A DNA stretch of 64,000 nt from Natronocalculus amylovorans (GTDB lineage: Archaea > Halobacteriota > Halobacteria > Halobacteriales > Haloferacaceae), in the NCBI RefSeq assembly GCF_023638035.1, contig NZ_JAKRVX010000003.1, positions 310,001-374,000 on the forward strand, in the 5' to 3' direction. Under the pieces are notes generated by a model, which had not been told where the DNA came from, did not search any database, and saw only the letters and a list, made by a program, of their open reading frames with translations. A program made the position numbers and the translations under genes. Positions 13,278-37,457 of the stretch are shown here, one piece after another; positions within the stretch are counted from its first letter, which is position 1, and each line of letters opens with the position of its first letter.

Positions 13278-15061
13278 GTAAGCACGCAACTGCACCACAA
13301 GACGAGACCGCAACGGACACAAATCCGGACTCGGAAACAGACGCAGAATCGACTACAGAAGCAACACCAACACAAGTTACCAACGGCGCGACTGCGGTCG
13401 TCAGATCGCTTGAGAACGCGGGTGTGACGCACGCGTTTGGTGTGCAAGGTGGTGCAATTATGCCCGTTTATGATGCACTGTGGGATTCTTCCATTCGCCA
13501 CATTACGATGGCGCACGAACAAGGTGCATCTCATGCCGCTGATGCATACGGTGTCGTGAAAGGAGTTCCCGGAATCTGTCTTGCGACGTCCGGACCAGGG
13601 GCAACAAATCTGGTTACTGGAATTGCTGACGCAGCGATGGATTCGGATGCAATGCTTGCCCTGACCGGCCAAGTGCCAAGCGGCATGGTTGGCTCTGATG
13701 CATTCCAAGAGACTGATACAACCGGTGTCACCGCGCCAGTCACAAAACACAACTACTTTGCATCGGATGCAACCACCGTCGGAAAGACGGTTGGCGAAGC
13801 ATTTGCACTCGCAGAAGCTGGTCGACCAGGACCAACGCTTGTCGACCTTCCAAAGGATGTTACATTCGGTGAGACGGATGATGACCCCGGTCCACCAAAA
13901 GCACCTGCACGATCGTCGCCATCACCGGATGCTGATCCTGATGCGGTGATAGCTGCGGCAGAAGTAATCTCCCGTGCAGAGCGCCCAGTCTGTTTGTTTG
14001 GCGGCGGCGTTATCAAGGCCAACGCGTCCGAGCAGGCTCGTGCGTTCGCACGTGAGTACAACGTCCCAGTTGTGACTACAATGCCTGGAATCGGGTCATT
14101 CCCCGAGGACGATGAACTTTGTTTGTCATGGGCGGGAATGCACGGAACCGGCTATGCGAATATGGCAATTACACACACTGATTGTTTGATCGCAGTTGGG
14201 ACTCGATTTGACGATCGGCTCACCGGTGGGATTGAGACGTTTGCTCCGGAGGCCGAGGTTGTGCACATTGATATTGACCCGGCTGAAATCTCGAAAAACA
14301 TCCACGCGGATTATCCACTGATTGGCGACGCTGCAACCGTCTTAGAGCAGTTGTACGATGCGATCGACGATGATCCGGAGACGGACGCATGGGTCGAACA
14401 GTGCACAACATGGAAAGAGGAGTATCCGATGGACTATACAACGCCAGAGGATGAACCAGTAAAACCGGAGTTCATTGTTGAGGCGTTCGATGAAGCCACA
14501 GATGATGATACGATCGTCACAACCGGTGTTGGCCAACATCAGATGTGGGCCGCACAGTACTGGACCTACACCAAGCCACGGACGTGGGTTTCATCCCACG
14601 GGCTTGGAACGATGGGATACGGTCTTCCTGCGGCGATTGGTGCACGATTTGCAGCAGACGACGACCAGAGCGTCATCTGTTTTGACGGTGATGGGTCATT
14701 CTTGATGACACTTCAAGAGCTGTCAGTTGCGGTTCGTGAAAACCTTGATATCACGGTTGCTGTGCTCAATAACGAATATATTGGTATGGTTAGACAGTGG
14801 CAGGATGCGTTCTTCGAGGGGCGACATATGGCATCCGAATACAACTGGATGCCGGAGTTTGACAAACTCGCGGAAGCGTTCGGTGCCAAAGGCTGGCGTG
14901 TCGATGAGTATGACGAGGTCGCAGCGGCGATCGAAGAAGCACTCGCATACGATGGCCCATCGGTCATTGATTTCCATATCGATCCTGGTGCGAATGTCTA
15001 TCCAATGGTTGCAAGCGGGGGCGCAAACGGCAAATTTGCCCTCTCGGAGGATCAGCTATGA
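13274..15061 (+). CDS. ilvB: Acetolactate synthase, large catalytic subunit
   Basis: First common step of branched-chain synthesis: joins two pyruvates, or pyruvate and 2-ketobutyrate, using thiamine diphosphate, FAD and Mg. Of 595 residues, the first 38 are an acidic low-complexity tail typical of halophiles. Then come the pyrimidine-binding domain with the catalytic Glu in MAHEQGASHAADAYG, the central FAD domain (GTRFDDRLTGG) and the pyrophosphate domain with GDGSFLMTLQEL ending in LNNEYIG. It is preceded by the candidate leader and overlaps ilvN by four bases, so the two subunits are made together. Confidence 0.97.
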   Translation: MSKHATAPQDETATDTNPDSETDAESTTEATPTQVTNGATAVVRSLENAGVTHAFGVQGGAIMPVYDALWDSSIRHITMAHEQGASHAADAYGVVKGVPGICLATSGPGATNLVTGIADAAMDSDAMLALTGQVPSGMVGSDAFQETDTTGVTAPVTKHNYFASDATTVGKTVGEAFALAEAGRPGPTLVDLPKDVTFGETDDDPGPPKAPARSSPSPDADPDAVIAAAEVISRAERPVCLFGGGVIKANASEQARAFAREYNVPVVTTMPGIGSFPEDDELCLSWAGMHGTGYANMAITHTDCLIAVGTRFDDRLTGGIETFAPEAEVVHIDIDPAEISKNIHADYPLIGDAATVLEQLYDAIDDDPETDAWVEQCTTWKEEYPMDYTTPEDEPVKPEFIVEAFDEATDDDTIVTTGVGQHQMWAAQYWTYTKPRTWVSSHGLGTMGYGLPAAIGARFAADDDQSVICFDGDGSFLMTLQELSVAVRENLDITVAVLNNEYIGMVRQWQDAFFEGRHMASEYNWMPEFDKLAEAFGAKGWRVDEYDEVAAAIEEALAYDGPSVIDFHIDPGANVYPMVASGGANGKFALSEDQL

Positions 15062-15753
15062 GTTCAGACGAAGATCCAACGTCACAGCGAGGACTACAAG
15101 GAAAGCCGCCGGAACAGCGTCCACATCCAACTGGACGACGGAACAAACAAGGCATTCGGATCGATCCCGAAGCAGAAGCGGAACCACGTGTTCGCAAAGC
15201 GGTGGTTTCGGCGCTTGTTGACAACGAGCCCGGCGTGTTGTCCCGTGTTTCAGGGCTGTTCTCTCGACGACAGTTCAATATCGAGAGTTTGACTGTCGGC
15301 CCGACAACTGTCGAAGGGAATGCCCGAATCACGCTTGTTGTTGAGGAGACCGATCCAGGAATTGATCAGGTGAAAAAACAGCTCGCTAAGCTCAAACCCG
15401 TAATGTCCGTTGGCGAGCTTGAAAATAACGCTGTTAGAGCGGAACTTGTGTTGTTGAAGGTCCACGGCGATGAGCCCGATAAGGTCCACGCAATCACACA
15501 GATGTATGACGGACAGACACTCGATGCCGGCCCGCGGACGATTACCGTCCAGATAACCGGTGATGAGAGTAAAATCGATGATGCAGTCGATGCGTTCAGA
15601 CAGTTCGGGATTATTGAAATTGCTCGAACTGGACAGACTGCGTTGGCTCGCGGTGACACCCCAACGACACCTGGTGAAGAGCCAGCACCGGAAGGGACGA
15701 TCGCTGAGGAACCATCACAACCGAGCGCAAACGTACAGTATTCAGACGACTAA
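15058..15753 (+). CDS. ilvN: Acetolactate synthase, small regulatory subunit
   Basis: Activates IlvB and gives feedback control by valine. The protein has 231 residues, with a polar N-terminal extension of about 45 residues, an ACT domain ([20 protein letters not shown], then [11 protein letters not shown]) and the C-terminal small-subunit domain ([33 protein letters not shown]), then an acidic Pro/Glu tail. The NEPGVL loop is the usual effector site. The start overlaps the ilvB stop by ATGA. Confidence 0.95.
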
Positions 15754-30990: not shown

Positions 30991-31034
30991 CCGTTTCCAC
31001 ATCGCTATTGTATGCACAGTTCATACTCACAGCT

Positions 31035-32792
31035 ATGTCTTTCCCCAATCGGAACACGCTCTGGGCACACGCAATCGTTGAAGAGATTGCACGGGCTGGT
31101 ATTTCTGCGGTCTGTATCTCTCCGGGTAGCCGATCGACGCCCCTAACGGTTGCATTCGCAGAGCATGACGACATCCATGTCTTTTCACACCTTGATGAAC
31201 GCTCAGCAGCGTACTTTGCGCTCGGGCGGGCACGTCGGACAGGCGATGTGACGCCTCTTGTCTGTACATCTGGAACAGCAGCAACGAACTTTCATCCAGC
31301 AGTAATCGAAGCATCAACTGCGCGTGTTCCACTGTTGTTATTGACTGCAGATCGACCACCAGAACTCCGTGACTCAGGGGCAAATCAGACCGTCGATCAA
31401 GAGAAACTGTACGGTGATGCCGTTCGTTGGTACAAAGACCTGCCAGAGCCGGAAGCCACCGACAGAAAGCTTCGATCGCTCAGAACAGACGTCGGGCGAG
31501 CGATCGGCACCGCAACAGGAACACCGTCAGGACCAGTGCATCTCAATGTGCCGTTCCGAAAGCCACTCGAACCAGTGCATGTCGAGGGAGACATCCCTGA
31601 CTCGCTTTCAGCGCTCGCAGCGACTGGTCGAACAGACGAGTCACCGTTTGTTCGAACCACTGCTGGGACGATGGGGCTTGGCGATCGAGACGTCCATCGG
31701 CTTGCAGAGGCAATTAGCGTCGATCGCGGACTGATTGTTGCTGGGCCAGCCGATCCCCCCGGGTATGACAAAGAGTCTCTCCTCGCATTCGCGCATGCGA
31801 GTGGCTTCCCAGTGCTTGCGGACCCACTCTCGGGGCTCCGATTCGGGGGCCAGAATCGAGTCGCACCGATCATCGGTGGCTATGATGCATATGTAAACAC
31901 TGACGCTACTGCGCTGTGGCCGGATCCAGAGGTTGTGATTCGATTTGGGGCGTCACCAACGTCGAAACCGCTACGGAAATATTTGGCCGGGACGGATGCA
32001 CGACAGCTCCTTGTCGATCCAGCAGGCGAGTGGCGTGAAGCCGAGTTCACGGCAACGGATCTTATTTCAGTTGACCCATCACAGTTCTGTGCACGGCTTG
32101 CACGCAGTATTCGACAGCCAGGTGATCCACAGTGGCGATCGAGATGGGTGGATGCAGACAACGCGCACTGGTCCTGTGTTGAACAGTCAGAAACGTTCTC
32201 TGAGGGTCATATCTTGAATACGGTTGTCTCGGAGAGCCCAGATCCGGCCACGATCGTCGTCTCAAATAGTATGCCAGTGCGCGATCTCGATCGGTACGGA
32301 AAGCCAACAACAACATCGATCACTGCGCTTGCAAACCGCGGTGCTTCCGGGATTGATGGCGTTGTCTCGACCGCACTTGGGGCAGGGAGTGCGACAACCG
32401 ACCACCTAACGCTTGTGATCGGTGATTTGGCGTACTACCATGATATGAACGGACTGCTTGCGCTCGATCGGTGTGACGTCGATGCGACGATTGTGCTCAT
32501 CAACAACGATGGCGGCGGTATCTTCCACATGCTCCCGATCGAATCGTACGATCCACCGTTTACGTCACAGTTTAAAACACCACATGGAGTAGACTTTGAG
32601 CCAACAGGTGAGCTGTACGGGAGTCCGTTCTATCGTGTCTCTAATATGGAGACGTTTACAGAACGCTATACTGAGTCGATCACCACGCCTGGCTCGACAA
32701 TTATTGAAGTCCAGACTGATGCATCCGAAAGTCACGAGGTTCGAGATAACTTGCAGGCGGAGACGATTGAAAACGTCTCGTCGATCGAGTAA
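31035..32792 (+). CDS. menD: 2-succinyl-5-enolpyruvyl-6-hydroxy-3-cyclohexene-1-carboxylate synthase
   Basis: Thiamine-diphosphate enzyme that adds succinyl semialdehyde to isochorismate in menaquinone synthesis. About 585 residues from the ATG at 31035 (MSFPNRNTLWAHAIVEEI); an in-frame ATG at 31008 adds nine unlike residues. Motifs are ISPGSRSTPLTVAF, VCTSGTAATNFHPAV and the cofactor segment VIGDLAYYHDMNG to NNDGGGIFHMLPI. Length is standard. Coupled with menF in position. Confidence 0.94.
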   Translation: MSFPNRNTLWAHAIVEEIARAGISAVCISPGSRSTPLTVAFAEHDDIHVFSHLDERSAAYFALGRARRTGDVTPLVCTSGTAATNFHPAVIEASTARVPLLLLTADRPPELRDSGANQTVDQEKLYGDAVRWYKDLPEPEATDRKLRSLRTDVGRAIGTATGTPSGPVHLNVPFRKPLEPVHVEGDIPDSLSALAATGRTDESPFVRTTAGTMGLGDRDVHRLAEAISVDRGLIVAGPADPPGYDKESLLAFAHASGFPVLADPLSGLRFGGQNRVAPIIGGYDAYVNTDATALWPDPEVVIRFGASPTSKPLRKYLAGTDARQLLVDPAGEWREAEFTATDLISVDPSQFCARLARSIRQPGDPQWRSRWVDADNAHWSCVEQSETFSEGHILNTVVSESPDPATIVVSNSMPVRDLDRYGKPTTTSITALANRGASGIDGVVSTALGAGSATTDHLTLVIGDLAYYHDMNGLLALDRCDVDATIVLINNDGGGIFHMLPIESYDPPFTSQFKTPHGVDFEPTGELYGSPFYRVSNMETFTERYTESITTPGSTIIEVQTDASESHEVRDNLQAETIENVSSIE

Positions 32793-32832
32793 CGCAAGGT
32801 ACTTACCATCGTTCTCTCATAGATATAGGTGC

Positions 32833-32916
32833 GCGTGGGTAGCCAAGCCAGGAAACGGCGCAGCGCTTAGGACGCTGTCTCATAGGAGTCCGCCGGTTCA
32901 AATCCGGTCCCACGCA
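32833..32916 (+). tRNA. tRNA-Leu (anticodon UAG)
   Basis: Type II tRNA of 84 nt. Acceptor GCGTGGG pairs with CCCACGC (discriminator A at 32916). The anticodon stem CAGCG/CGCTG encloses CTTAGGA with anticodon TAG, a long variable arm follows, and the T arm has TTCAAAT. CCA is not encoded. Its 3' part from 32860 onward is duplicated at 35042, so the gene served as an integration site. Confidence 0.95.
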
Positions 32917-32917
32917 T
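32860..32917 (+). repeat. Attachment-site copy within tRNA-Leu (attL)
   Basis: 58-bp segment from the anticodon stem to the tRNA end, repeated at 35042-35099 with three mismatches; the first 30 bp are identical. The copy inside the intact tRNA is the functional one. Confidence 0.85.
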
Positions 32918-33026
32918 CCAATAAATCGGTGCATTCTTGCGTTTTCTTCCTGTCAAAACCATTTTAGTCAACCCAACGAAAAACTGTGACAATATATTAG
33001 AGGTGAATTTGGACCCCGGACACCAC

Positions 33027-33128
33027 ATGAAAATTGTCCCATCAGCCAATCGCGAGCGACTCAACGAGAAACAGATTGTTGACTACCACAGTTACCGGGA
33101 ATCGTTCCTAGAATGGTTCTTCATATAG
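33027..33128 (+). pseudogene. Probable tyrosine-recombinase N-terminal remnant
   Basis: ATG 33027 to TAG 33126. The reading RERLNEKQIVDYHSYRESFL resembles the core-binding domain of haloarchaeal integrases (helix with Tyr and Phe-Leu-Glu-Trp). After the W-F-F the frame stops, but another frame continues with HIGKNPVYGLVYQ, similar to the GKNP segment of these integrases. It lies 110 bp from the tRNA, the usual place for an integrase. The call rests on short similarity only. Confidence 0.4.
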
Positions 33129-33502
33129 GGAAGAATCCCGTGTATGGCCTCGTTTATCAATGAAGGGAATCCACGCTCCATTCTGGGGTGTCCACAGTAC
33201 CCTCAGATAGCCCTCTGCTTTGTTATGGGTTTATAGAGAACACAGCGAGCGAGGTGTGGTGATATCTGTAAGATTTCAAAAAAGGCCGACGGGCTAAACG
33301 ACGGAGTTCCTAATAAGGGTAAGAATAAGAACCAATTTTGCTTGCTGATATATTTATTCACCCCATTGTGAAAAGAAAATGACTTCATGCCGATATTTAT
33401 ATTTATTTAAGTAATATTGGCGTGATTTCCCGGACGTGCCCTCTCTAAATTGTATATATGTTGTTAAGATCGTCTTTTCGCGAACATTATCCCCGCAAGT
33501 GA
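33129..33502. other. Gene-free AT-rich stretch of the tRNA island
   Basis: 374 bp of AT-rich DNA with no ORF showing protein-like composition and no hairpin of note. It may be eroded sequence of the former integrative element and contains the downstream end of the HsdR_N-type gene. Confidence 0.4.
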
Positions 33503-34870
33503 TTACACTTCATCAGAATTCACCGGGAGCCAAGACCTATTATCAAGACGAACCAAATTTAAATCACGAAGATTTTGGAGCGCAGTTTGAACATCAGTAC
33601 GGGACTCTCCCCATTCATCATCCCACTCAATCGGAGACTCATCAAACTTAGCAACCGTGCGGTGAATTGAGCGGAGCGATCTACCCGGATTTGCTCTAAC
33701 TGCCCTGAGAACAAACTCTTCCTTCGAATTAGGTTCCTCTCTTCGTTTAGAGTCGTCTGCAAATAGGTCATCTGTAGTCTCGGCAGTTCGCAATTCCCCA
33801 AGGGTGGTATATTGTAGTGACTGAGGCCATTTGTTCTTGAACGGAATGGGGTCTTCCAATTCATAGAGGCTATTCTTTTCAAAGACAACGACCCTCTTCC
33901 CATCCTCAATTTCTTTTCTATCCACGTAGGATTCCGGTTCACGTCGAAGTTGAGCATTTTCGGGAGAAACAATCTCTTTGACCTTTGCTAAGTATCTCAC
34001 TTCCTGAGCATCTCGAGATAGATACATAGCCACATAGTCTGGCTTGCCCCCAATCCGGACAAATCCCCAAGCGTTGTTTTCGGTGAGGAACTTGAGTCCC
34101 GATTCACGGGAAGGGAATACTGCGACCTTGGCGTTATCAGGGCCTGAGATATTCTGCCTTCTAATCGCTCCCACTACTCCACCCCCACCCGAATCAGGAC
34201 TCTCAATCTCTTCTTCAATGTTATCGATGAGCCGGTCAATCATCTCCTTGGCTTGAGACTCAGCAGGTTGGGAGAGAGTTTCTGAGACGTTATTGGCTAA
34301 CAGTTCAGCGATTTCGGTAGCTAAGTCATCCTTGTCTCTTCCGAGTGTATCACGGGCATCCCTCAATTCCGTAATGCGATTCAGAATTTTCACCCACTCA
34401 TTATTCTCAATAGCATCTTTCGTAAACGCTCTCAGAATCGTAACTCTTTCACAAAGGTTCTGAAGGTCTGTCTTAGCGAGTGTATTCACATTGACTTTGG
34501 TATCAACAACCTGCCGTCTGTAGAACTCATAGTCTTCACCGTTGGTCAATATCCCTAAATTCACGTCTTCGTTCTTCAGGTATGCTCTCAGTTGCTCCCG
34601 GTGCTTGTTGCCGAGCGAGTTGTCAACGCCTTTGGCTTCAAGAAATGCGACAGGGGTTCCTTCCAAGACCAGCGCATAATCTACCTTGTAGGTCTTTCCG
34701 AACGCCTTCACCGAGTATTCAAGTTGAGTGTTGGCCGGAATATTCCATCCGAGAAGGCCAAGAAAATCCCGTAGGATTGCCGCCTTCGTGTTCGCTTCAT
34801 CCATTTGAGGCGAAGCGTCTATAATTGATTGAGCGTGTTCAATGTACTCTCTCACCGCTTCCCGTTCCAT
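33503..34870 (-). CDS. HsdR_N (type I restriction endonuclease-like) domain protein, solitary
   Basis: A 455-residue protein with an N-terminal PD-(D/E)xK nuclease-like domain: YKVDYALVLEGTPVAFLEAK gives Asp64, Glu78 and Lys80, after QLEYSVKAFG. This is the HSDR_N domain of type I and related restriction proteins, but no helicase motor, HsdM or HsdS is present. The middle (about 150-230) is helical with coiled-coil character, then a Gly linker. The tail (about 390-455) looks like a winged helix (FVLRAVRANPGRSLRSIHRT, VQTALQNLRDLNLVRL). It is the only full gene of the tRNA-Leu island. A stand-alone defence nuclease is a fair guess; a DNA-damage role is possible. Confidence 0.7.
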   Translation of the reverse strand: MEREAVREYIEHAQSIIDASPQMDEANTKAAILRDFLGLLGWNIPANTQLEYSVKAFGKTYKVDYALVLEGTPVAFLEAKGVDNSLGNKHREQLRAYLKNEDVNLGILTNGEDYEFYRRQVVDTKVNVNTLAKTDLQNLCERVTILRAFTKDAIENNEWVKILNRITELRDARDTLGRDKDDLATEIAELLANNVSETLSQPAESQAKEMIDRLIDNIEEEIESPDSGGGGVVGAIRRQNISGPDNAKVAVFPSRESGLKFLTENNAWGFVRIGGKPDYVAMYLSRDAQEVRYLAKVKEIVSPENAQLRREPESYVDRKEIEDGKRVVVFEKNSLYELEDPIPFKNKWPQSLQYTTLGELRTAETTDDLFADDSKRREEPNSKEEFVLRAVRANPGRSLRSIHRTVAKFDESPIEWDDEWGESRTDVQTALQNLRDLNLVRLDNRSWLPVNSDEV

Positions 34871-35041
34871 AATTACTTACAGATTGTTCAGCCCAATGTT
34901 ATCAAAGTATCTGACTCAACTCTCCAAACGACAATATCGTTTGGCCCTGTGGGGTGGGTGTTCTTATAATGATATAGACCCAAATAAGGCTTATCAGGCA
35001 GGGAATCGGTGAGATACGCCGGAATTGAAGTTGGTCCTACT

Positions 35042-35099
35042 GCAGCGCTTAGGACGCTGTCTCATAGGAGTGCGTCGGTTCAAATCCGGTCCCGCGCAT
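35042..35099 (+). repeat. Partial tRNA-Leu copy (attR)
   Basis: Repeats bases 32860-32917 with three changes (in the variable/T arm and acceptor). No 5' half pairs with it, so it is not a tRNA gene but the far end of the island. Confidence 0.85.
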
Positions 35100-35211
35100 T
35101 TTTGCTCCGAATAATAAGACCTGCAATCTTTCTGAATGGAGTTAACACAGTAACCGATCGAGGTTCAAATTTCAACAGTGGGTTCAATAATCCGAATCCG
35201 ACTATGACGTT

Positions 35212-35994
35212 CTAACAGTCTTTATACGCCGCAGCAAGCCCATCAAGCGCTTCGTGATGTTCTGCCGTATGTGGTGCCGTGAGTGGTGATACACTCACTC
35301 GACCTTCCATGATCGCCCGCCGATCGTATCCCTCCGGATCAGGGATAGTACCATCTCGCATCTGCTCCCAGATGTAGTCTTTAATTGCCACCGTTGAGCC
35401 GTTCTTTTCGGCACCCATTTTGTACCACCGAGATGGTGTTGTCACTTCGATCGGTGCCACCGTTCCGTTAAACAGCGGTGCATTCACGTTGAGGTAATCA
35501 ACCTGTTCGAATACGCCTGCATCGACCGAGTGTTTAACCAGATAGGTTGCGGCTTCGGTCGCATTTCGGTAGTCTTGCGGGTCGGTCGCCTGTTCACGCC
35601 AATTGTCGCTTGCTGGAATATACATCGAGACGGCGATCGCTGGCACATCAAAATATGCGGCCTCAACTGCAGCACTCACAGTGCCCGATCGGCCGAGTAC
35701 GTACGACCCAATGTTTGCACCTTTATTACAGCCAGCGACGACAATATCGGTATCTGGACACAGCGACCCTAGCCCTGCAACAACACAGTCTGTTGGTGTT
35801 CCAGCAACTGCGTATCCGAGTTCGTGTTCTTCAAGTGTAACTTCGTGTGACATCGATCGACCAACCGCGCTCTGGTCGTTTTTTGGGGCGACGGCAGTGA
35901 CAGAGCCGACAGTATCTAACGCATCATAGAGGGCACGGAATCCAACGCTGTCGATACCATCGTCGTTTGTCAGCAAAATCGAAGGGTCATCCAT
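35212..35994 (-). CDS. surE: 5'/3'-nucleotidase SurE
   Basis: Metal-dependent phosphatase for nucleoside monophosphates, 260 residues. Motifs are ILLTNDDGIDSVGF (metal Asp pair) and VAGCNKGANIG with Asn ligands, SAVGRSMSHEVTLEE and the end MEGRVSVSPL. Length fits the family. Divergent from the coiled-coil gene at 36074. Confidence 0.95.
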   Translation of the reverse strand: MDDPSILLTNDDGIDSVGFRALYDALDTVGSVTAVAPKNDQSAVGRSMSHEVTLEEHELGYAVAGTPTDCVVAGLGSLCPDTDIVVAGCNKGANIGSYVLGRSGTVSAAVEAAYFDVPAIAVSMYIPASDNWREQATDPQDYRNATEAATYLVKHSVDAGVFEQVDYLNVNAPLFNGTVAPIEVTTPSRWYKMGAEKNGSTVAIKDYIWEQMRDGTIPDPEGYDRRAIMEGRVSVSPLTAPHTAEHHEALDGLAAAYKDC

Positions 35995-36073
35995 GCGTGA
36001 CAGTTACGCGGACAGCGCAAAAACACACCGACAACCCACAAAGAAGACAAGGGGGGAGCATATATCAGAGAGT

Positions 36074-36409
36074 ATGGGACTCGGTAGTACAACAAAAAAG
36101 ATTCAATCGATTGCTGATACCGCAGAGCAGATGTACCAACGAATGAACGAACTCCGGATTCAGGTCGAAAATACCCAAGATACGGTACAGACAACCGGTG
36201 AAAAGGTGCAGAGACTCGAAGCAGAAATTATTGAACAGCGAGCAATCATTGAAGCGATCGCCGAAGAGTTGGATGTTGATCTTGAATCAGTCACTGCTGA
36301 AGCTCATATTCTAGAGGCAGAAGCCGAAGCGGAGAAGGCTGATTCGGACAACACTGATACCGAGTCATCGATCGATAACGCAGAGGAATCAAACAACCCC
36401 ACCGAATAA
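36074..36409 (+). CDS. Haloarchaeal coiled-coil protein (DUF5798-like)
   Basis: A 111-residue acidic helical protein. The ATG at 36074 gives MGLGSTTKKIQSIADTAEQM, the family-type start; an earlier in-frame ATG at 35993 adds unlike residues and overlaps the surE start. A TATA-like CATATATCA lies 15 bp upstream. Heptad pattern from residue 18 to 62 (VQRLEAEIIEQRAIIEAIAE), then an Asp/Glu-rich tail. Matches DUF5798 from memory. Function unknown. Confidence 0.72.
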   Translation: MGLGSTTKKIQSIADTAEQMYQRMNELRIQVENTQDTVQTTGEKVQRLEAEIIEQRAIIEAIAEELDVDLESVTAEAHILEAEAEAEKADSDNTDTESSIDNAEESNNPTE

Positions 36410-36476
36410 CTCTCCGTATTTATTGACAACGGGTCGATGAAAAGGTACACAAACAGGGGCAACATTTGCCTACCTA

Positions 36477-37457
36477 ATGACAACCCATCGGCAGCCACTC
36501 GATTCTGTGCTTGAGACGATCGGCGAAACGCCGCTCGTCCGAGTACACGCTGGGCCTCCGGGAGTTCCGATCTACGCGAAATTGGAATCGTTCAATCCGG
36601 GGGCGAGTATCAAAGACCGGATTGGCAAGTATATGCTTGAAGAGATGTTAGCAGATGGAACCCTCAAACCAGGTGGGACCGTCATTGAGCCAACCGCGGG
36701 GAATACGGGTATTGGAATCGCGGTGGCTGCAGGTCAACTCGATTTGGAGGCTGTGTTTGTTGTCCCAGAGCGGTTCAGTCTTGAGAAACAGCAATTAATG
36801 CGCGCTCTTGGTGCAACGGTCATTAATACACCAACTGAGAAGGGAATGGGATATGCGATCGATCGGGCTCATGCGCTTGCCGAAGAGCTTGCGAACGCAG
36901 TTGTTCCACAACAGTTTGAGAACCCACTAAACGCTAACGCGCACTATGAGACGACCGCACCGGAAGTCTATGAGGCGCTTGAAAATGAAGTCGGGGCGAT
37001 CGTCGCCGGTTGTGGGACTGCAGGGACACTCATGGGGATGGCACAGTATGGCCGAGAATACGATGCACAAACCCATGTAGCCGCAGTCGAGCCGGAAGGT
37101 TCACTCTATGCAACATTCACTGGTAAGGACGTCGAAGAAGGATCGTACAAAACGGAGGGTATCGGAACGCATGATCCATCAACAAACGCCTTATTTGACC
37201 CCACGCTTGTTGATGAAGTGCTTCGGTTCTCCGATCGCATGATCCACGAAGAAATGCAACGGCTTGCGGCTGAGGAAGGCCAGCTTGTAGCTTCCAGTGC
37301 TGCAGCAAACAGTTTAGCTGCACAATCTGTGGCAAACCGGATCGCTGACGGATCCATTGATGCACCATCCGATTCGGTTGTTACGGTGTTTGCAGATTCA
37401 AGTGAGCGGTACCTCTCGAAAGGAGTGTATCGATCGTACGACGAGTGGGAAGGATAG
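36477..37457 (+). CDS. Cysteine synthase / cystathionine beta-synthase family (PLP)
   Basis: Fold-type II PLP enzyme of 326 residues that joins a serine derivative with sulphide or homocysteine. The PLP Lys is in NPGASIKDRIG (Lys46). The Asn loop reads EPTAGNTGIG (72-80), with Ala74 where the common CysK/CBS sequence has Ser. The phosphate loop is GCGTAGTLMG. No CBS domains. The altered loop leaves open O-acetylserine, O-phosphoserine or serine as substrate. Cystathionine-synthase-type enzyme is encoded 6 kb away. Confidence 0.88.
   Translation: MTTHRQPLDSVLETIGETPLVRVHAGPPGVPIYAKLESFNPGASIKDRIGKYMLEEMLADGTLKPGGTVIEPTAGNTGIGIAVAAGQLDLEAVFVVPERFSLEKQQLMRALGATVINTPTEKGMGYAIDRAHALAEELANAVVPQQFENPLNANAHYETTAPEVYEALENEVGAIVAGCGTAGTLMGMAQYGREYDAQTHVAAVEPEGSLYATFTGKDVEEGSYKTEGIGTHDPSTNALFDPTLVDEVLRFSDRMIHEEMQRLAAEEGQLVASSAAANSLAAQSVANRIADGSIDAPSDSVVTVFADSSERYLSKGVYRSYDEWEG

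Follow-up and report, generated by a model that had tools for sequence, protein, structure and literature searches.

A One-Gene tRNA-Leu Island in Natronocalculus amylovorans Carrying a Solitary Nuclease of a Family Often Found beside Haloarchaeal tRNA Genes

Within a 64,000-nucleotide stretch of the Natronocalculus amylovorans genome (positions 310,001 to 374,000 of contig NZ_JAKRVX010000003.1; the window in what follows) a tRNA-Leu gene and a partial copy of its 3' part enclose a single intact gene, coding for an HsdR_N-type nuclease, together with the remains of an integrase. A decayed tRNA-Leu element with one kept gene is the simplest account of this arrangement. The kept gene is a member of a haloarchaeal nuclease family whose genes are solitary and often lie next to a tRNA, either by themselves or at the tRNA side of an element, and because the family recurs at tRNA edges, and in places makes up the whole insertion, the gene is not an arbitrary survivor. 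Our best explanation as a whole, to which we would give a probability of roughly 0.6, is a decayed tyrosine-integrase element with a solitary nuclease as its cargo and a type IV-like restriction role for that nuclease. Islands at tRNA genes are usually viewed as multi-gene elements undergoing decay. Decay is not the only route to an island of one gene, however, since at other loci the cargo gene has been inserted alone, and reduction may be only part of the explanation.

The tRNA-Leu(TAG) Site

The features of the site are collected in Table 1. A repeat search over positions 31000-37000 gave one strong direct repeat only, 58 nt long with 95% identity and a longest exact stretch of 30 nt, that runs from the anticodon stem to one base beyond the end of tRNA-Leu, the copies being spaced by 2.2 kb. 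The initial annotation, in which a 58-bp copy of the tRNA 3' part with three mismatches closes a 2.2-kb segment, is thus reproduced to the base. A same-orientation match of this length to a tRNA 3' end is not chance, because even 18-nt copies of tRNA tails occur in none of 325 random 420-nt stretches of cargo loci. The site has the full tRNA at one end and a partial 3' copy, in which ARAGORN calls no tRNA, at the other. Between the two copies the G+C content is 0.42-0.48, as against 0.52-0.59 across most of the men gene region on the left, where the flanking gene is menD-like. A TATA-like stretch ahead of the right tRNA copy has counterparts in two other genomes (G069 and G073) at nearly equal spacing, yet 110 and 26 of 500 shuffles reach the alignment score, and the likeness is no more than suggestive of a common promoter.

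Table 1. Features of the tRNA-Leu(TAG) site and of the cargo gene (window positions)
Feature	Position	Strand	Basis
Left flank: menD-like gene	31008..32792	+	ORF list; homologs tracked in relatives
Native left copy (attL side): tRNA-Leu(TAG)	32833..32916	+	ARAGORN; menD junction common to sister genus g4 (G006, G007)
58-nt direct repeat, left copy; tRNA position 28 to 1 base past the 3' end	32860..32917	+	repeat search
Integrase N-terminal remnant with stop and frameshift; directly after the tRNA, as in intact islands	32985..33149	+	tblastn E 4e-4 to L095 integrase; reading frames
Intact cargo gene, 455 aa, HsdR_N-type nuclease	33503..34870	-	ORF list; Pfam HSDR_N
Codons 383-450: additional C-terminal segment, possibly a winged helix (low confidence)	33521..33724	-	model pLDDT ~40-60; alignment A1
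Codons 242-365: predicted PUA-superfamily (ASCH/YTH/EVE-like) domain	33776..34147	-	Foldseek ASCH 5y6c E 3e-3, prob 1.00; Z 8.3 ASCH, 8.1 YTH
Codons 1-156: PD-(D/E)XK nuclease domain; E25, D64, E78-x-K80, Q93, Y97 present	34403..34870	-	alignment A1; model vs DrdV, 3h1t
TATA-like box of cargo gene, ~30 nt before ATG, recurring in relatives	34899..34907	-	upstream sequence comparison
TATA-like stretch, ~50 nt ahead of expected start of right tRNA copy, as in G069, G073; suggestive	34964..34977	+	alignment
58-nt repeat, right copy; partial tRNA (attR side); 3 mismatches	35042..35099	+	repeat search
Right flank: surE	35212..35994	-	Pfam SurE E 1e-44

The DNA directly behind the tRNA corresponds to residues 11-65 of a complete 386-residue integrase from Haloferax massiliensis that is matched by Pfam PF00589 (E 1.5e-18) and that comes from an intact tRNA-Leu(TAG) island, where it occupies the same place behind the tRNA. 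In the window an integrase beside the tRNA is present as a remnant only, breaking off at the stop and frameshift, and excision or transfer of the element is not expected, judging from the sequence, because the integrase is broken. The segment had been annotated initially as holding only an HsdR_N-type protein, an apparent integrase fragment and empty DNA, and this description stands, with one intact long ORF between the tRNA copies. The repeat, the integrase remnant and the relatives described below show that a tyrosine-integrase element once entered tRNA-Leu(TAG); the functional tRNA stayed at the left end and the right end received a partial copy. The integrase has since decayed, as would the remainder of the element, while a single gene stayed intact.

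Judged by its relatives the window is haloarchaeal, and its genome is the sole representative of its genus among the 170 family genomes searched. In two genomes of the sister genus (G006 and G007) the menD-tRNA-Leu junction is the same as in the window and the cargo gene is missing from it in both; elsewhere in these genomes the cargo search found nothing in G007 and, in G006, a single distant match on a different contig. What relatives carry at this tRNA-Leu had been put forward as a check of the island, and the outcome is mixed: the cargo is absent from the junction, but only the left flank and the tRNA are shared, the right flank in the sister genus differs from that of the window, and these relatives offer no empty site bounded by the two flanks. 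Across the 17-kb stretch of G006 there is no integrase match and only two short tRNA-tail copies. Directly behind tRNA-Leu in G007 lies a relative of the integrase, split over two frames (locus L119, 8477-9112), so that broken elements may be present here in the two genera alike.

The Cargo Nuclease

Residues 49-119 of the cargo protein match Pfam HSDR_N with E 3e-6, above the family cut-off, as do 30 of 32 aligned relatives. Residues E25, D64, E78, K80 and Q93 are kept in at least 90% of the 32 aligned sequences and Y97 in all of them, and the window has every one, so that Pfam, alignment and model agree on a nuclease domain with intact catalytic residues. In the AlphaFold2 model (mean pLDDT 82.7) the nuclease part compares with DrdV at Z 14.1 and with the HsdR fragment 3h1t at Z 11.9, and is followed by long helices at residues 158-223 that would form a coiled coil. 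The middle domain, residues 242-365, resembles ASCH and m6A-reading YTH domains; since its Z scores of about 8 lie near the background of which the comparison tool warns, a reader domain is likely, not certain, from the model, and Pfam matches no modified-base reader family in the protein. Residues past ~375 are poorly modelled and have no counterpart in those A1 relatives that possess the middle domain. Type B relatives, which make up about half of the total, end in another domain. Pfam also finds no helicase family in the 455 residues, that is, no HsdR motor domain, the C-terminal part being modelled as PUA-like. Two of the aligned relatives, L096 (G154) and L098 (G103), carry the same C-terminal PUA-like domain behind an unrelated N-terminal part in which there may be an E-T-K nuclease motif, as though one reader had been combined with different nucleases.

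A comparison of the cargo with its relative L080 over 213 codons gives dN/dS of approximately 0.14 (0.18/1.30). Synonymous divergence was saturated (a value of -1) for seven of the nine pairs tried and could be obtained for L080 (1.30) and L081 (3.9) only, so the estimate uses L080 alone. In sequence terms the ratio shows constraint on the protein over the whole divergence and not specifically since the insertion.

Several other assignments were tried and rejected. A viral origin found no confirmation among 53 IMG/VR pattern hits with the type A alignment, and phage records gave eight matches, to bacterial or unstated-host phages, at 24-38% identity over the N-terminal 220 residues. As a known defence system the protein has weak PADLOC matches, the strongest of which (E 8e-5) is with a type IIG enzyme and spans the nuclease part, and PHROG 4225 'endonuclease' (E 3e-17) covers residues 17-197 only. 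A PDB sequence search with the type A alignment gave nothing useful, its single match having E 0.35. The window's genome holds a second, distant relative of the cargo (L101, G000:C12:631103-631753; 30%, 383 aa), ~2 kb from a tRNA-Thr, and a short piece of the type A C-terminus at G000:C16:111811-111891.

Relatives of the Cargo Gene at tRNA Genes

Cargo matches occur in 62 of the 170 family genomes. In 79 loci of named records, 1.44 Mb in total, there are 76 T-arm-like stretches, 25 of them within 600 bp of the cargo gene (at 23 loci, one of which, L235, is bacterial with a T-arm match that may be chance) and 17 at 300 bp or less. Because 56 of the 79 loci have no T-arm within 600 bp, the linkage of the family to tRNA genes is a strong tendency rather than a rule. 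A group of relatives that contains L091, L097 and L099 likewise lacks a T-arm at this distance, and members of the family are found on plasmids as well. With control loci retrieved in the identical manner (the match and 1.5 kb on each side), a T-arm was present at 12 of 29 cargo loci and at 2 of 30 loci for each of the control families, N6_Mtase and PIN (Fisher p 1.6e-4 for the pooled controls, 4/60); the 29 loci are from other genomes, three from the window's own genome having been excluded, and are in part non-independent as some of the genomes are related.

The tRNA genes concerned are diverse. Complete adjoining tRNAs in the named-record loci have ten anticodons (Arg TCG and CCG; Gly CCC, TCC and GCC; Val CAC; Ser TGA; Leu TAG; Ala CGC; Thr TGT), to which the family genomes add His GTG and Thr GGT, giving 12 in all for tRNA genes or fragments. 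The suggestion that the same cargo be sought at other tRNA islands has thus been borne out, and the finding that was to speak against an island, one fixed location free of repeats for this gene across most relatives, is not what we see, with the gene absent from both sister-genus junctions and at many kinds of tRNA elsewhere. Proteins at different tRNAs can be close, as for L071 (tRNA-Leu) and L162 (tRNA-Gly) at 89% identity, and those of L160 (Natronomonas) and L161 (Halobellus) are 96% identical. Type B relatives are likewise found at tRNAs; therefore the PUA part is not what links the family to them.

Four intact islands show the cargo in a larger context. They are located at tRNA-Leu (G032, 9.8 kb), tRNA-Thr (G054, ~13 kb) and tRNA-His (G094, ~13 kb, and G147, ~21 kb), and in each the native tRNA is followed first by an integrase or integrase-like ORF, and the gene order ends with the cargo ahead of the tRNA copy, a position whose frequency is biased because the islands were selected for a tRNA copy near the cargo. 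Pfam was run on the G032 island only, where it identifies the integrase and an Eco57I-type enzyme of 1306 residues; the integrase label in the other three follows from place, size and N-terminal likeness. The G094 island has a 1289-residue ORF whose start resembles the Eco57I-type enzyme, and that of G147 an N6_Mtase gene with neighbors that presumably form something like a type I system. From the contents of these three islands it follows that the companions vary while the cargo stays. The G094 island (locus L152) lies between two complete tRNA-His genes, 1972-2045 and 15026-15099, and is thus an element that apparently supplies a complete additional tRNA gene in place of just a 3' part.

Short copies of tRNA tails are a feature of the cargo loci in their own right. 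Among 65 complete tRNAs in these loci, 25 (17 of the 27 for Leu) have 18 nt of their own T-loop-to-acceptor tail repeated 72-154 nt downstream, at loci that include L111, L116, L118, L122, L123, L129, L162, L189 and L191. Nine of these 25 copies form the 3' side of a hairpin in which the tail's complement makes up the 5' side, with a sequence that follows the tRNA (Gly, Thr, Leu). These copies, which could be old att sites or a trailer structure, are unexplained.

Origin of the One-Gene State

The initial annotation described an island reduced to a single gene. Its reading of the segment as a tRNA island holds, and the one-gene state may have arisen by loss, but in three genomes comparison with empty sites shows insertions of the gene alone at tRNA genes, so that it may also travel by itself. 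In Halorientalis regularis (L162, G350) 1643 bp with no other ORF of note lie between perfect 107-bp repeats, each made up of 59 nt of tRNA-Gly(CCC) and 48 bp of flank, and the site is empty in the genus-mates G257 and G435. In G069 ~1.4 kb with the cargo alone are located directly before tRNA-Leu, where seven genus-mates have 70-162 bp, and in G116 a cargo-only segment of ~1.2-1.3 kb follows tRNA-Gly(TCC); in relatives the distance between this tRNA and the same flank ranges from 38 bp in G109 up to 131 bp in G105.

These insertions bear on the alternative that we take most seriously, although we consider it unlikely, namely that the mobile unit is the gene itself. The nuclease gene and a promoter of ~50 bp would be inserted at tRNA sites, or exchanged between them, with no integrase of their own, by means of an integrase acting in trans or of homologous recombination between conserved tRNA sequences, and the integrase scrap in the window would be from an older element at the same hotspot. 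Pairwise comparison of ten type A genes fits such a unit, the DNA in common being limited in 36 of 45 pairs to the ORF, at most 56 bp upstream, generally ending ~50 bp ahead of the ATG, and at most 37 bp past the stop. Set against this, non-coding flanks diverge fast, and the remaining nine pairs share longer flanks (up to 5.9 kb for L160/L161), so that transfer with neighbors also happens; moreover, no transposase-like ends are known and tRNA repeats on both sides are seen at only one of the three insertions, that of Halorientalis.

Doubtful to a slightly greater degree is pure erosion in the absence of selection, with the gene as the last part of a dead element that has yet to be lost. Haloarchaeal tRNA-linked remnants that have no integrase are known, as in the tRNA-Thr1 remnant described in PMC3119063, and truncated copies of the cargo do occur, for example in G073. 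A full 455-codon frame with all of its catalytic residues next to an integrase with a stop and frameshift argues in the opposite direction, however, as does the low dN/dS relative to L080. Selection for the cargo after loss of mobility, as proposed with the initial annotation, may have acted, but dN/dS averages over the whole lineage.

More speculative still, and in our view rather improbable, is a one-gene cassette that homes to tRNA edges, with tRNA tails as landing sites and its own nuclease perhaps opening the target, in which case one-gene tRNA islands would be a distinct self-spreading class and not remnants. Local duplication of the tRNA in place of integration, for which the abundance of short tail copies behind tRNAs might be cited, is very hard to credit given the 2.2-kb spacing, an integrase remnant that lies where one is expected and whose match does not come from an unrelated reading frame, the low G+C content and the absence of the gene from the sister-genus junction.

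Proposed Function

From its sequence and model the cargo is most likely a stand-alone, modification-dependent (type IV-like) restriction enzyme. Its architecture suggests that the PUA-fold domain would read a modified base in incoming DNA, that the coiled coil would pair subunits and that the HsdR-type PD-(D/E)XK domain would cut. Such an enzyme would need no partner methylase and the gene could therefore be kept, and moved, alone. A search of the window's genome for N6_Mtase gave no match, a result that is at any rate compatible with an enzyme directed against modified DNA. We give little credence to a role in element upkeep or competition, for example as a nuclease that excludes rival elements from the same tRNA hotspot: the cargo does adjoin the right tRNA copy in four islands with otherwise differing genes, but most of the 79 loci have no tRNA nearby and the plasmid-borne members fit poorly.

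Relation to Known Systems

Haloarchaeal tRNA-island remnants that lack an integrase are already in print, and what is unusual here is the recurrent cargo. Haloquadratum walsbyi has a 6.7-kb remnant at tRNA-Thr1 and the island GI3 at tRNA-His (PMC3119063), which have, like the window, a full tRNA at one end and a partial 3' copy at the other, with the integrase lost (tRNA-Thr1) or beside the tRNA (GI3); the window differs in measuring only 2.2 kb and in having one intact gene that recurs, also alone, at many kinds of tRNA. As with the archaeal tRNA-using tyrosine integrases covered by PMC8371274, the integrase adjoins the tRNA and the repeat runs from the anticodon region to the 3' end, although in the window an N-terminal remnant is all that is left. 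The cargo shares its N-terminal nuclease domain with HsdR of type I restriction enzymes and, unlike HsdR, is the product of a solitary gene and has no Pfam helicase match. The joining of nuclease and PUA-fold reader in one protein that needs no methylase, as predicted for the cargo, is found in VcaM4I (PMC7897488) and in EVE-HNH and EVE-PD(D/E)XK enzymes, the latter predicted (PMC7641849). The cargo is distinguished from these enzymes by an HsdR/DrdV-type nuclease with a coiled coil and by a predicted ASCH/YTH-like reader that Pfam does not recognize. Our search of the open-licence literature gave no report of this gene family at tRNA genes, and in term searches of the text the words 'tRNA' and 'HsdR' do not occur in two surveys of haloarchaeal and archaeal restriction (PMC6471742, PMC10609329).

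The recurrence of the cargo beside many tRNA genes suggests a defence-like gene that spreads and survives alone. A single such gene at tRNAs of 12 anticodons, both at island edges and by itself, would show how a restriction gene that needs no partner can persist beyond its carrier and disseminate independently, and the minimal cargo insertions provide a clean set for testing how such a gene spreads.
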